Of a stretch of DNA of 64,000 bases, positions 52,652-57,031 are shown in pieces. The notes beneath the pieces were generated by a model. It did not search any database. It had not been told where the DNA came from and saw only the letters and a program-made list of their open reading frames with translations. The position numbers and the translations under genes were made by a program. The stretch spans positions 1 to 64,000 of the forward strand of contig JAUJOK010000020.1 in NCBI GenBank assembly GCA_030447685.1. The letters are read 5' to 3'. The stretch is from Armatimonadaceae bacterium (lineage in GTDB: Bacteria > Armatimonadota > Armatimonadia > Armatimonadales > Armatimonadaceae). How positions within the stretch are numbered: the stretch's first letter is position 1; every line of letters starts with the position of its first letter.

Positions 52652-53281
52652 TGCCCGCCTCCGGGAGCCTGTGGTGCGCCTTGTTTTTTCATGCCGACTC
52701 GCCAGGCAAAGTCTTTCGCTGGATCGAGCGCCGGTACGCTAAAGAAGGGGTGCCATTGGCAAACCTCGGCCTGCTGCTGAGGGATGCGGCGCCGCCGGAC
52801 GGGCGGCGCGCGCTTGTCGGCGGCGCGGCGGACGCGCTTGCGTGGATGCAGGCGTCCGGCCCCGCCTTTCGAAGCCTCCGCCGTCGGCAGCGCTGCTCTG
52901 GGCGGACACGAAGAACCGGACGTGGGGCTATAGCCTCTGGGATTCGGCGGCGAGATGGAGCAGGAGGCGGGCAGGTGCCCCGCGCCCGGTCTGCTTGGAC
53001 GCCTGCTGGGTATCGGAGTGGCGGATGCTTCGGTCCCCGCCGTTCAATGGGCTATCGACCGTCGTCTACCCGTTGACCGTATCCCGGATGCCGCCGGTCG
53101 CCGCCGCGCCGCGCCCGTTTATCCCTACGCCACTGTCGCCAGCCTGGACGAGCGCGGCCTGCTCATCGAAAACAGCCCGCGTCTGTATCGCTTCCCCTTC
53201 GCGAGCAGTGGCAGCAATGCCGAAAACCGGAACCGGGGCCTGCGGTATAATCGGAGTGGGGAAGTGAACGGATGCGAGTGA
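52651..53281 (+). pseudogene. Broken gene coupled to glnD
   Basis: ATG 52651 overlaps the glnD stop (TGATG). The first frame reads LWCALFFHADSPGKVFRWIERRYAKEGVPLANLGLLLRD. Beyond about 52865 the plausible frame is +1 (LLGRLLGIGVADASVPAVQWAIDRRLP, VYPYATVASLDERGLLIEN), with an internal stop (TAG at about 52931). I do not recognise the family. The alternating frames over conserved-looking peptides show at least two indels. The 3' end runs into ispH. Confidence 0.45.
53246..53251 (+). promoter_or_regulatory. -10 box of ispH
   Basis: A perfect TATAAT, 20 bases before ATG 53272, with GGAGTGGGG as ribosome site between. It lies within the broken upstream gene. Confidence 0.55.
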
Positions 53282-54211
53282 TATTGGCGGGGCCGCGCGG
53301 GTTCTGCGCGGGCGTGGACCGGGCCATTGATATTGTGGATATTGCGCTGGAGGTGTACGGGCCGCCCTATTTACGTGCGGCACGAGATCATCCACAACGA
53401 TTCGTCGTCCGGCAGTTGCGCGATAAGGGAGCCGTCTTCACCGATTATCTGGCCGAGGTGCCTGAAGAAAGCAATCTGGTCTTTTCCGCGCACGGGGTTT
53501 CGCCCGCCGTGCGCGCCGAAGCCGCCGCGCGCCGCCTGAACGTCATCGACGCCACCTGCCCCTGGTCACCAAAATCCACCTGGAAGTGCACAAGTACCTG
53601 AAGCGCGGCTATGGCATCTTTTATATCGGGCATCGCGGCCATGTGGAGACCGAGGGGACGCTGGGCGAAGCGCCGGGCCGCATGCACCTGGTCTGCTCGG
53701 AAGATGAGGTCGCGGCGCTGCCGGAGCCTGCCGAAGAGAAGCTGATCTACCTGACACAGACGACGCTTTCGATTGACGAGACGCGCGGCATTGTGGACGC
53801 CCTCAAAAAACGCTTCCCCCGCCTGGAGATGCCCCCGACCGACGACATCTGTTATGCCACGCAGAACCGGCAGGACGCCGTCAAAGAGCTGGCAAAGCAG
53901 GCTGATGTGGTCTTAGTCGTCGGCTCACAGACCTCGTCCAACTCGCGCTCGCTGCGGCAGGTCGCCGCCGCGCACGGTGCGCGCGCCTACCTTATCGATG
54001 GCCCCGAAAACATTACCGACGAAATGGTGAACGGCGCGGGTCGTGGGCGTCACGGCGGGCGCGTCCGCCCCTGGAAGAGGTTGTGCAGTCTGTCATCGCC
54101 GACCTGCGCCGTCGCGGCGCTGACGAGGTCGAGGAGTTCCTGCTCAAAGAAGAGGACATGGAATTCAAGCTGCCGGCGGGCCTCATCCAACTCTGGCACG
54201 GGAAGAAGTAG
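53272..54211 (+). pseudogene. ispH: IspH (HMBPP reductase) with about five indels
   Basis: The N-terminal frame gives [19 protein letters not shown] with the first Fe-S Cys. Segments [25 protein letters not shown] (second Cys), YIGHRGHVETEGTLGEAP, DDICYATQNRQDAVKELAK (third Cys) and VGVTAGASAPEEVV can all be read, but only by changing frame at about 53366, 53400, 53560, 54036 and 54072. The end is LIQLWHGKK at 54211. IspH makes IPP/DMAPP in the MEP pathway and is normally essential. Intact active-site peptides across all frames suggest that the gene is functional in the cell and the sequence has errors, or that a second copy exists. Confidence 0.85.
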
Positions 54212-54235
54212 CAGCCGGAATTGTCCGTTATTTTT

Positions 54236-54810
54236 CCGTCACGTTTTTCCCGTCGATTGAAATCACGGCTACGGAAAACACAAAGTCCGCCTGCGCGGAC
54301 TGAGAGATGGATTCATGGCGGATGTAATGAATGCGGTTTGCTTACATCTTGTGTGGGCGACGTATGACCGGCAGCCGTTGTTGGTGCCCGAGATACGGGC
54401 ATTGGTATATCGAGAAATCATTGCCAAAGGTAAGGAGAACCTGTGTCCCGTCGTCGCTATCGGTGGTACTGATGACCATGTCCATGTGGTGGTGCAATTT
54501 GCGACGACGGTTTCCATCTCCAAGCTGGTGAAAGACATGAAGGGAGCGTCATCGCATCTGGCTAATCATCGGGAGACAGGCGTACCGGGGACGTTCAAAT
54601 GGCAGGGCACCTATGGCGTCTTTCCCATAGAGCCGGACAGCCTGCCGCGCGTTATACATTACGTGGAACGGCAGGAAGAGCATCACCGGGATGATTCGGT
54701 CGATCCGCGCCTGGAGCAAACCAGCCGCCCAACACCTCAAGAATAGTCCGCGCAGGCGGACTTTGTGTTTTCCGTAGCCGCGATTTCAATCGACGGGCAA
54801 AACGTGACGG
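54236..54810. mobile_element. IS200/RAYT-type element with 66-bp inverted ends
   Basis: About 575 bases. Left end 54236-54301 and right end 54745-54810 are inverted repeats that match at 64 of 66 positions. Each contains the hairpin AGTCCGC-CTGC-GCGGACT (54284-54301 on the left). A single tyrosine transposase gene lies between. Elements of this kind use a single-strand peel-and-paste mechanism and usually have subterminal hairpins, but such long near-perfect inverted ends are unusual. The pair REP-transposase-REP resembles a RAYT unit. It sits between ispH and the polymerase gene. Confidence 0.88.
54315..54746 (+). CDS. REP-associated/IS200-like Y1 transposase
   Basis: 143 residues, length normal for TnpA of the IS200 group. 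The HUH metal motif is DDHVHVVVQF (His-x-His), and the catalytic Tyr is in HYVERQEEHHR near the C-terminus. The N-terminal strand VCLHLVWATYDRQPLL is typical (HLVWxT). It cuts and rejoins single-stranded DNA at the hairpins of the flanking repeats. ATG 54315 is the only good start; its upstream leader is the left inverted end. Confidence 0.93.
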   Translation: MADVMNAVCLHLVWATYDRQPLLVPEIRALVYREIIAKGKENLCPVVAIGGTDDHVHVVVQFATTVSISKLVKDMKGASSHLANHRETGVPGTFKWQGTYGVFPIEPDSLPRVIHYVERQEEHHRDDSVDPRLEQTSRPTPQE

Positions 54811-54845
54811 GCAAAAATGGCGACGGGCAAAACGCGACAGAAAAA
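54790..54845. repeat. Degenerate 14-16 bp tandem repeat
   Basis: GACGGGCAAAA recurs at about 54792, 54806 and 54821, followed by weaker GACAG units. It begins within the right end of the IS200/RAYT element and continues past it. Confidence 0.6.
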
Positions 54846-54868
54846 TACGACAGACGAAACAAGGCGCG

Positions 54869-57031
54869 TCAAAACAACGACATCTGGTGTTCTTCGGCTT
54901 TGGCCTTTTTGCGTTTCGCGCCGGTGAGGGGCTTGGGGAAAAGCGTATCGAAATCATCGCCGATGGCGGCCTGAAGGCGCTGGGCGAATTTGTACAGCTT
55001 GGTCTGGTAGTATTCGATGTCTTCGTCGTCGGCGTAATCGTCGGCGAGGGCGAGGGATTTGTCTTCGCGCTGATATAAAATCGCGTAGTCGCCGACGGAA
55101 AGGCCCTGCATCGCGGCGGCATTTCGCCTTTTAGCCTCGGACGAAAACGTCTTGTCCGTGACGCGCTCGCGGCGGGCAATCTCGGCGATGCCCAGTTCGC
55201 GATTGTCGATCTGCGTCAACAGCCGCTGGTACAGCGCGCTTAGCTCCGCCTTTTTATCCGCCAGCAGCAGGTCTACCGCCTCGCTCAAGAAGCGCCGCCC
55301 GAACCGCTCGTCGGCGCGCGAACGCAGCGAGGAGCCTTTGAAGGTCTTTTTGCCCTCATATGTCACCAGCACGTAGTTCTTGGCCTTGAGCGAAAGCATC
55401 ACCGCGTAGCGGCCATCGAAGGCGAGCCGGATACCTTCAGGAAGCTCCTTTCCGACTTTGGCGACGAACTCCTCCTCCGCCTCCGGGCCGGAGACGCCGG
55501 GCGGCGGCTGGAAATAGACGCCGTCCGTGTCGATCTCGACAACGGTCGCGCCGCGCCGCTCCAGTTCGGCGGCGATGTCCTTGACAATCCCCTGGCCGAT
55601 CTCGGTGACTTTGGCCGCCGCCGCGAAGTCGTTGAAGTAGAAGGGCGCACCCAGATAGCCGTAAAACGAGTTGATCAGCAGCTTGTAGGAGCTTTGCAGC
55701 CCGTCCCAGTAGGCGGCCTGCCGCCCCTCTTTTGCGCGCCTGGCCCGCTCCTTGGCTTTCAGGCGGCGCTTGGTCAGCTCGCTCAGCATCGGCAGGAAGA
55801 GGTTAAGCTGGTCGGAGGCGGAGGTGATATTCCGGCTGAGCATGATGCTGGGATACAGCGACTCCACATCCGCCTTGACGATGCCGCGCAGAACGCCGGA
55901 CAGGCGCATCTCCGTGTAGCCGCCGCCGTAGGGCTGCGACGGCTGCTGCCGCGCGACCGCATGGCCCCTCTCCAGATACGCCCGCACGAAGACCGAATTA
56001 ATCTTTTCGCCGGAGCCGGTCACGGCGACATTTTGGTAGGCGTCGGGAACCATCTGCGTCTGGTAGAACTCGGTCGGCGCGACGATCTCGGCCAGGCGGC
56101 GCGTTTCCCGCACGTCGCCTAAAGCGTAGGCACGCACGCGCTCCGGGTCTTCCTGCCACAGCCGCAGAATGTCCGCTCGGTCCAGGTACACCCGCTCCGG
56201 CTCGGCGATATGGTAGTGCTGGGCGCACTCCTTCAAGCCGTAGGAGGAGATTTCGCCGCGAGAAACATCGAAGCGCTGGGTCTGGAACAGCGTATCGAGA
56301 ATGTGCCGCCCCCAGATATAGTGGCCGATAAAGGGGCGCGTGTTCGCCCCAATGGCGCAGTTGCGCTCCATGCCGACCGCCACTTCCGAACCGTCCCGGC
56401 CCCACAGCAGGGCCAGCCCGTGCGGCTTCGCGCGCGCGCGCAGCCAGGGCAGGTCGAACTCATAGAAGTTTTGCACCTCGTTAACGTCCGGGTCCCATTG
56501 CGTCAACAGATCGTTTAGCTGCTTGAGCATTTCGCGCTCGTAAACCTTCAGCACGGTTTCATTTTTGCGATTGTCGGAGGCGACGATCATAAAGATTCGC
56601 GCATTCTCGGCGGTGGGAGACAGATCGGTCGTTTCAATGTCAATCTGCATCCGCACGATGTCGGGGAAGGCCATGCCTTTGAACAGAGTACGCCCGGTGG
56701 CGATCAGGAACTGTTTCACCAGCGAGGCGTAGCTGAGGTGATCGCGCCGTTCCTCGCGCAAAATGCGGCGGGCTTCCAGATAGGCGCTTTTCGAGGTGAA
56801 GCGCACCAGTTGGGTATAGCCCGCCCCTTCCAGCGTCTGATACTCCGCTGCGCCGGGCAGCGTGCGCGCTTCCTTCAGAACAACCCAGGGATGAAAAGGA
56901 ATCTGTTCCCGTTCCAGCGGCCCATTGTCGGGCTGCCGCAGGAACAGCGTCGCCGTGTCCTCACCCGTTTCGACCGCCACGATGCGCGGGGTGGAATCGC
57001 TTCCGAAAAGCGCCTGCTCCATCAAGTCCAT
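54869..57031 (-). CDS. Family-B DNA polymerase with clamp-binding tail
   Basis: 720 residues. 3'-5' exonuclease: Exo I with DIET at about 130-133 (MQIDIETTDL), Exo II NFYEFDLPWL, Exo III YALGDVRETRRLAE. Polymerase: motif A KADVESLYPSIML, motif B LINSFYGYLG, motif C EIDTDGVYF (DTD). The last residues are QMSLF, an exact beta-clamp binding peptide. It is shorter than E. coli Pol II (783) and closer in layout to archaeal-like bacterial PolB. It probably acts in replication restart or repair. TATAAT lies 6 bases before the ATG. Confidence 0.93.
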   Translation of the reverse strand: MDLMEQALFGSDSTPRIVAVETGEDTATLFLRQPDNGPLEREQIPFHPWVVLKEARTLPGAAEYQTLEGAGYTQLVRFTSKSAYLEARRILREERRDHLSYASLVKQFLIATGRTLFKGMAFPDIVRMQIDIETTDLSPTAENARIFMIVASDNRKNETVLKVYEREMLKQLNDLLTQWDPDVNEVQNFYEFDLPWLRARAKPHGLALLWGRDGSEVAVGMERNCAIGANTRPFIGHYIWGRHILDTLFQTQRFDVSRGEISSYGLKECAQHYHIAEPERVYLDRADILRLWQEDPERVRAYALGDVRETRRLAEIVAPTEFYQTQMVPDAYQNVAVTGSGEKINSVFVRAYLERGHAVARQQPSQPYGGGYTEMRLSGVLRGIVKADVESLYPSIMLSRNITSASDQLNLFLPMLSELTKRRLKAKERARRAKEGRQAAYWDGLQSSYKLLINSFYGYLGAPFYFNDFAAAAKVTEIGQGIVKDIAAELERRGATVVEIDTDGVYFQPPPGVSGPEAEEEFVAKVGKELPEGIRLAFDGRYAVMLSLKAKNYVLVTYEGKKTFKGSSLRSRADERFGRRFLSEAVDLLLADKKAELSALYQRLLTQIDNRELGIAEIARRERVTDKTFSSEAKRRNAAAMQGLSVGDYAILYQREDKSLALADDYADDEDIEYYQTKLYKFAQRLQAAIGDDFDTLFPKPLTGAKRKKAKAEEHQMSLF

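Follow-up and report, generated by a model that had tools for sequence, protein, structure and literature searches.

A subclass 1.2-type Y1 transposase gene in Armatimonadaceae lies between inverted two-hairpin ends that are dispersed as REPIN-like doublets

Introduction

The arrangement reported here, a transposase gene between two REPs together with dispersed REP doublets, is already published. Nunvar et al. (2010, PMC2817692) described the REP-rayt-REP arrangement, and Bertels and Rainey (2011, PMC3116915) described REPIN doublets. Our locus resembles the RAYT/REPtron in that a single-copy Y1 gene is flanked on both sides by inverted palindromic repeats, copies of which are scattered over the genome, and in that several different genes of this kind share a genome, each with its own repeat (PMC2817692). 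Published RAYTs carry the motif Y---NP, and a GT(A/G)G foot marks the hairpins of the REPs that go with them, whereas the protein here has Y---Q--HH and each end has two hairpins and an AGCC-like tag (GTAGCC in the gene's own subtype). Like REPINs and BIMEs, the doublets we describe are inverted, about 100 bp long and extragenic, with conserved outer ends and a variable spacer (PMC3116915). The REPINs of P. fluorescens are almost symmetrical and form a single long hairpin, whereas the inner hairpins here differ; mixed pairs are also known from the y-z BIMEs of E. coli (PMC8266576). It has long been asked of these systems why the repeats spread but the RAYT genes remain in single copy.

By its protein, the locus is closest to TnpA_Y1 subclass 1.2 of Quentin et al. 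(2018, PMC6006769), with which it shares DHVH, WQ and Y---Q--HH motifs, a length of about 148 aa, low copy number and divergent copies. Quentin et al. enter that subclass as REP "no" and without the usual IS200 ends, and place most of its members in Cyanobacteria and Bacteroidetes. Most of the loci examined here have REP-like ends, and they come from Armatimonadota, Planctomycetota and others. In the standard classification, subclass 1.2 proteins are neither IS transposases nor REP-associated and so have no role. The published "no" is a reported absence and not a defining property of the subclass. The automatic REP search of Quentin et al. used a GT[AG]G foot, and such a search would miss ends of the kind found here. 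Our literature search, which had incomplete coverage, found no report of REPs in Armatimonadota and no later work on TnpA_Y1 subclasses.

Two further systems are related. In TIRYTs/TIRtrons (Di Nocera et al. 2013, PMC3733652), a RAYT-like gene lies between long terminal inverted repeats; as here, some of these are double-palindromic and repeated in the genome. TIRYTs belong to subclasses 2.1, 2.2 and 2.5 (PMC6006769), and most have a C-terminal HTH, which the protein here does not. IS200/IS605 elements (IS608, ISDra2) share the catalytic fold and residues and the lack of target duplication, but our locus has no tnpB, is not multicopy and has long inverted ends. What is new here is the presence of REP/RAYT-type repeats in a transposase branch reported without REPs, and the difference between same-type gene ends and mixed doublets.

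Anatomy of the locus

We analyzed a stretch of 64,000 nucleotides (the window) from an Armatimonadaceae genome of 5.0 Mb (116 contigs, 87.6% complete). A first-pass annotation made from the letters alone had described near-perfect 66-bp inverted ends, and we recovered them: positions 54236-54301 match the reverse complement of 54745-54810 at 64 of 66 positions, and a repeat search extends the arms to 71 nt at 94% identity (Table 1). Sliding the same 66-nt arms by 1-2 nt left 17-21 of 66 positions identical. A chance match was ruled out, as the arms score 127 against a best of 30 among 1000 shuffles. The annotation had also assigned an AGTCCGC hairpin to each end. This hairpin (AGTCCGC-CTGC-GCGGACT) is present in both arms and had no chance match in 100 shuffles of the window, but each arm holds two hairpins rather than one, with the AGTCCGC hairpin on the inside. 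A single intact ORF lies between the arms. Its TAG stop (54744-54746) extends two bases into the right inner hairpin.

Table 1. Features of the element, in window coordinates
Feature	Position	Strand	Basis
Left inverted arm, 71 nt	54231..54301	+	repeat search, shuffles
Left outer hairpin CCCGTCGATTGAAATCACGGC, TGAA loop	54249..54269	+	covariation in family
Left inner hairpin AGTCCGCCTGCGCGGACT	54284..54301	+	family covariation, shuffles
Left half-site, matches dispersed repeat family	54248..54303	+	covariance model R1, 61 bits
Subclass 1.2-type TnpA_Y1 (RAYT-like) transposase, 143 aa; DHVH, WQ, YVERQEEHH	54315..54746	+	
Right inner hairpin, foot holds the gene's TAG stop	54745..54762	-	shuffles
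Right outer hairpin	54777..54797	-	covariation in family
Right half-site, matches dispersed repeat family	54743..54798	-	64 bits
Right inverted arm	54745..54815	-	repeat search, shuffles

The surroundings of the element have features of their own. Directly upstream, ispH (4-hydroxy-3-methylbut-2-enyl diphosphate reductase, 53272-54212) is split over three frames; the frame shifts close to 53590 and again at about 54040-54080, which reflects either assembly errors or a broken gene. Downstream, and facing the element, is a gene for a family B DNA polymerase of 720 aa (54869-57031, minus strand). At and just outside the right arm, GACGGGCAAAA occurs as three direct near-repeats (54788-54850).

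The transposase and its class

The enclosed ORF is a Y1 transposase gene, as the HVH and Tyr motifs had indicated. Its product matches PF01797 (Y1_Tnp, E=4.8e-19), and DDHVH (H55/H57) and Y116 align with the active site of ISHp608 TnpA. The subclass 1.2 set (DH[IV]H, WQ, Y---Q--HH, about 148 aa) is found in the window protein. The classical RAYT (class 2) motif, Y---NP or NP(L/V)(R/K)xG, is absent, and YVERQEEHH stands in its place. Subclass 1.2 is described as having a conserved C-terminal domain of about 30 aa (PMC6006769); 19 aa follow HH in the window protein. In a tree with few reference rows and a very long E. coli RayT branch, the protein's clade of 60 rows, which includes Bacteroidota, has support of 95/95 and is separated from E. 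coli RayT and from three class 1.1 proteins. On sequence grounds, the gene is thus assigned to a Y---Q--HH branch near IS200, outside the classical RAYT classes (Y---NP). The initial description of a RAYT with two facing REPs is borne out for the inverted, dispersed ends, but the protein is not a classical RAYT. We file the locus as a putative REPtron in function whose protein, judged by its motifs, is of the subclass 1.2 type and not a class 2 RAYT.

There are four Y1 genes in the genome. The window gene is single-copy, and the others are 38-44% identical to it and are not copies. Two of them (L032 on contig C46 and L033 on C87) are likewise flanked by inverted two-hairpin ends, which differ from those of the window gene and are dispersed in the genome too. 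A separate end family thus belongs to every one of the three subclass 1.2-type genes. None of the three class 1.1 controls has inverted ends. On these two grounds we rejected the transposase as an unrelated neighbour of the repeats. In L033 (G000:C87:57892-58300) the reading frame shifts after the WQ motif and before the catalytic Tyr motif, and the end family of this gene is still dispersed. The fourth gene (L034, G000:C99:46629-47006) has no inverted ends; it encodes a divergent Y1 protein (DHLH, YIKNQAERH) between trpB-like and trpA-like ORFs and is possibly a domesticated Y1 gene without REPs.

Dispersed ends and doublets

We built a covariance model from 45 half-sites having both hairpins and counted matches at E<=0.1. 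The genome holds 68 half-sites, and the dispersed copies of the ends are nearly all inverted doublets. The outcome that would have spoken against the first-pass reading, unique ends beside a single-copy non-REP transposase, did not occur. Compensatory changes support both hairpins: 97.5% of cells are paired, and 6 pairs have double changes, against 0-1 when slid. All 27 close pairs are inverted doublets of ~115-150 bp with the outer hairpins facing out (+- arrangement), and some apparent single half-sites have degraded partners (e.g. C3:9011). A short spacer of 4-39 nt occupies the place of the gene in these doublets, and in one pair the halves overlap. The most frequent doublet centre, AGAA-TCAGTCC (TGA-AGAA-TCAGTCC), matches the 3' end of the gene, CAAGAATAGTCC (CAA GAA TAG TCC). 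Doublet edges are sharp, with conservation beginning abruptly at the element edge. We found no target duplication or target motif at the doublets.

Most doublets (22 of 26) lie outside ORFs, although ORFs cover 86% of the same loci. Both this placement and the conserved, covarying hairpins would also fit functional RNA, such as terminators or hairpins that affect mRNA stability, kept for the host, with the transposase as an unrelated neighbour. Such a host function is very improbable as the explanation, since RNA kept for the host would not follow the identity of the transposase, and separate end families bracket three transposase genes here and most relatives elsewhere.

The doublets do not all match the gene's ends in their outer hairpins. 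Nine of 26 share the gene's own outer subtype, on one half, and the other 17 carry an outer subtype (CACCATCG..GAGGCT..GTAC) that occurs at no transposase gene in this 87.6%-complete assembly. The first-pass annotation had suggested that the locus may have given rise to smaller derivatives. Such smaller units do occur, as heterotypic inverted doublets (see below), and the gene need not have generated all of them, because only nine carry its end subtype. An unlikely though serious alternative is that the gene is trapped between two REPIN remains and now moves nothing, the doublets having been spread by a transposase that is lost or unassembled. The prevalence of the other outer subtype, the incompleteness of the assembly and the full doublets that adjoin the gene at two loci elsewhere (L246 and L231) would agree with this, but the ORF is intact, its active site is conserved and its own subtype is present in the nine doublets.

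Several variants of the repeats were seen. As to the GT(A/G)G tetranucleotide at the foot of classical REP hairpins, GTAGCC precedes the outer hairpin in the gene's subtype only, with CAGCC, GAGCC and similar tags in other families. In the L007-L011 family (e.g. G000:C77:78326-78399, C56:65919-66068), the inner hairpin of several half-sites is lengthened by a palindromic insert, GCAGCACCGTGCTGTGCG. An outer-loop insert, GGCAAGCGTAGCGCAGTTGC, is present in copies C3:9011, C84:38747 and C112:5977, and in both halves of C3:9011.

Mixed doublets and same-type gene ends

The inner hairpins distinguish the doublets from the gene locus. All 26 intact doublets are heterotypic, pairing an AGTCC-type half with an AGCCTGC (22) or AATCGGC (4) half, whereas the gene locus is homotypic, with AGTCCGC in both arms. 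In the inner region, the two halves of a doublet have an identity of 0.54-0.83, against 0.96 for those of the gene locus. Because we picked doublets by similarity to the gene end, which favours homotypic ones, the bias runs against this result. Heterotypic doublets occurred in five of eight families examined: the window family, and L098, L095, L052 and L033, in which doublet means were 0.71-0.77 against 0.90-1.00 at the gene (two doublets scored for L033). Heterotypy is not universal, as L105 (0.96) and L093 (0.93), from other genomes, have near-homotypic doublets; doublets of L103 are intermediate (0.79; gene locus not scored).

These differences bear on whether the whole unit is an active IS, that is, a Y1 transposon whose ends are long terminal inverted repeats and whose internal-deletion MITEs are the doublets. 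The unit is clean, its ends are near-identical and the doublet centre resembles the gene's 3' end, all as such an element would have. We nevertheless consider this improbable. The gene is single-copy, with no closer Y1 relative in the genome than those described above, and the inner hairpins differ in doublets while the gene's two are alike. In addition, the dispersed unit stops at CACC/GCCC, whereas the inverted match of the gene-locus arms continues ~17 nt beyond it.

We favour the reading, to which we assign a probability of about 85%, that the locus is a REPtron (HuH/Y1, subclass 1.2 type) within a REPIN-like doublet population. As a likely mechanism, a transposase dimer would bind the hairpins once the doublet is single-stranded, cut and rejoin the doublet by HuH/tyrosine chemistry, and so move it in trans by single-strand transposition. 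Unlike inner hairpins may prevent the doublet from collapsing into one long hairpin and would give it a left and a right end. Predicted DNA folds contained local inner hairpins in 23 of 52 native halves and in 0 of 52 halves of artificial homotypic controls, in which the two halves form one long hairpin instead. The predicted local hairpins fit the "clover" fold that Bertels and Rainey (PMC3116915) proposed as the form a transposase can recognise. The gene copy is probably immobile, since both of its ends are of the same type. The difference in end types would account both for polarity in the mini-element and for immobility of the gene copy, and it bears on the single-copy state of RAYT genes.

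Related loci in other genomes

Inverted two-hairpin end pairs scoring at least 40 were found at 45 of 63 Y1 loci from the order and many non-cyanobacterial phyla; the 95th percentile for mismatched end pairs was 27. Almost all of the relatives' proteins have Y---Q--HH. We searched concatenated ends in 13 other genomes. Six relatives of the order gave 57, 77, 18, 4, 73 and 62 matches. Beyond the order, there were 21 in Neolewinella, 5 and 17 in two Planctomycetota, 3 in a deltaproteobacterial MAG, 42 in a Phycisphaerales MAG, 102 in a Sphaerobacter MAG and 12 in an "Actinomycetota" MAG. The ends are clearly dispersed in 10 of the 13 genomes, and the remaining three (G008, G020 and G022) have 3-5 matches only. 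Within the order, among the matches listed, every end is confined to its own genome or genus.

These end families give subclass 1.2 proteins a role. They also point to REP/REPIN systems that either have more than one origin or predate class 2 RAYTs. We propose tentatively, at somewhat less than even odds, that the class 1 IS200-like Y1 branch has its own widespread two-hairpin REP/REPIN system, in which the mini-elements would be polar and the gene ends of one type. On this proposal the composition of its ends would lock the domesticated transposase in place while it moves asymmetric doublets in trans.

By inspection, the outer-loop TGAA (TTCA on the other strand) recurs between families. The transposase gene has a complete doublet next to it, on one side, at L246 (G015:C272) and at L231 (G013:C1:2821900-2823900), a hint that such doublets may have supplied the ends of the gene.
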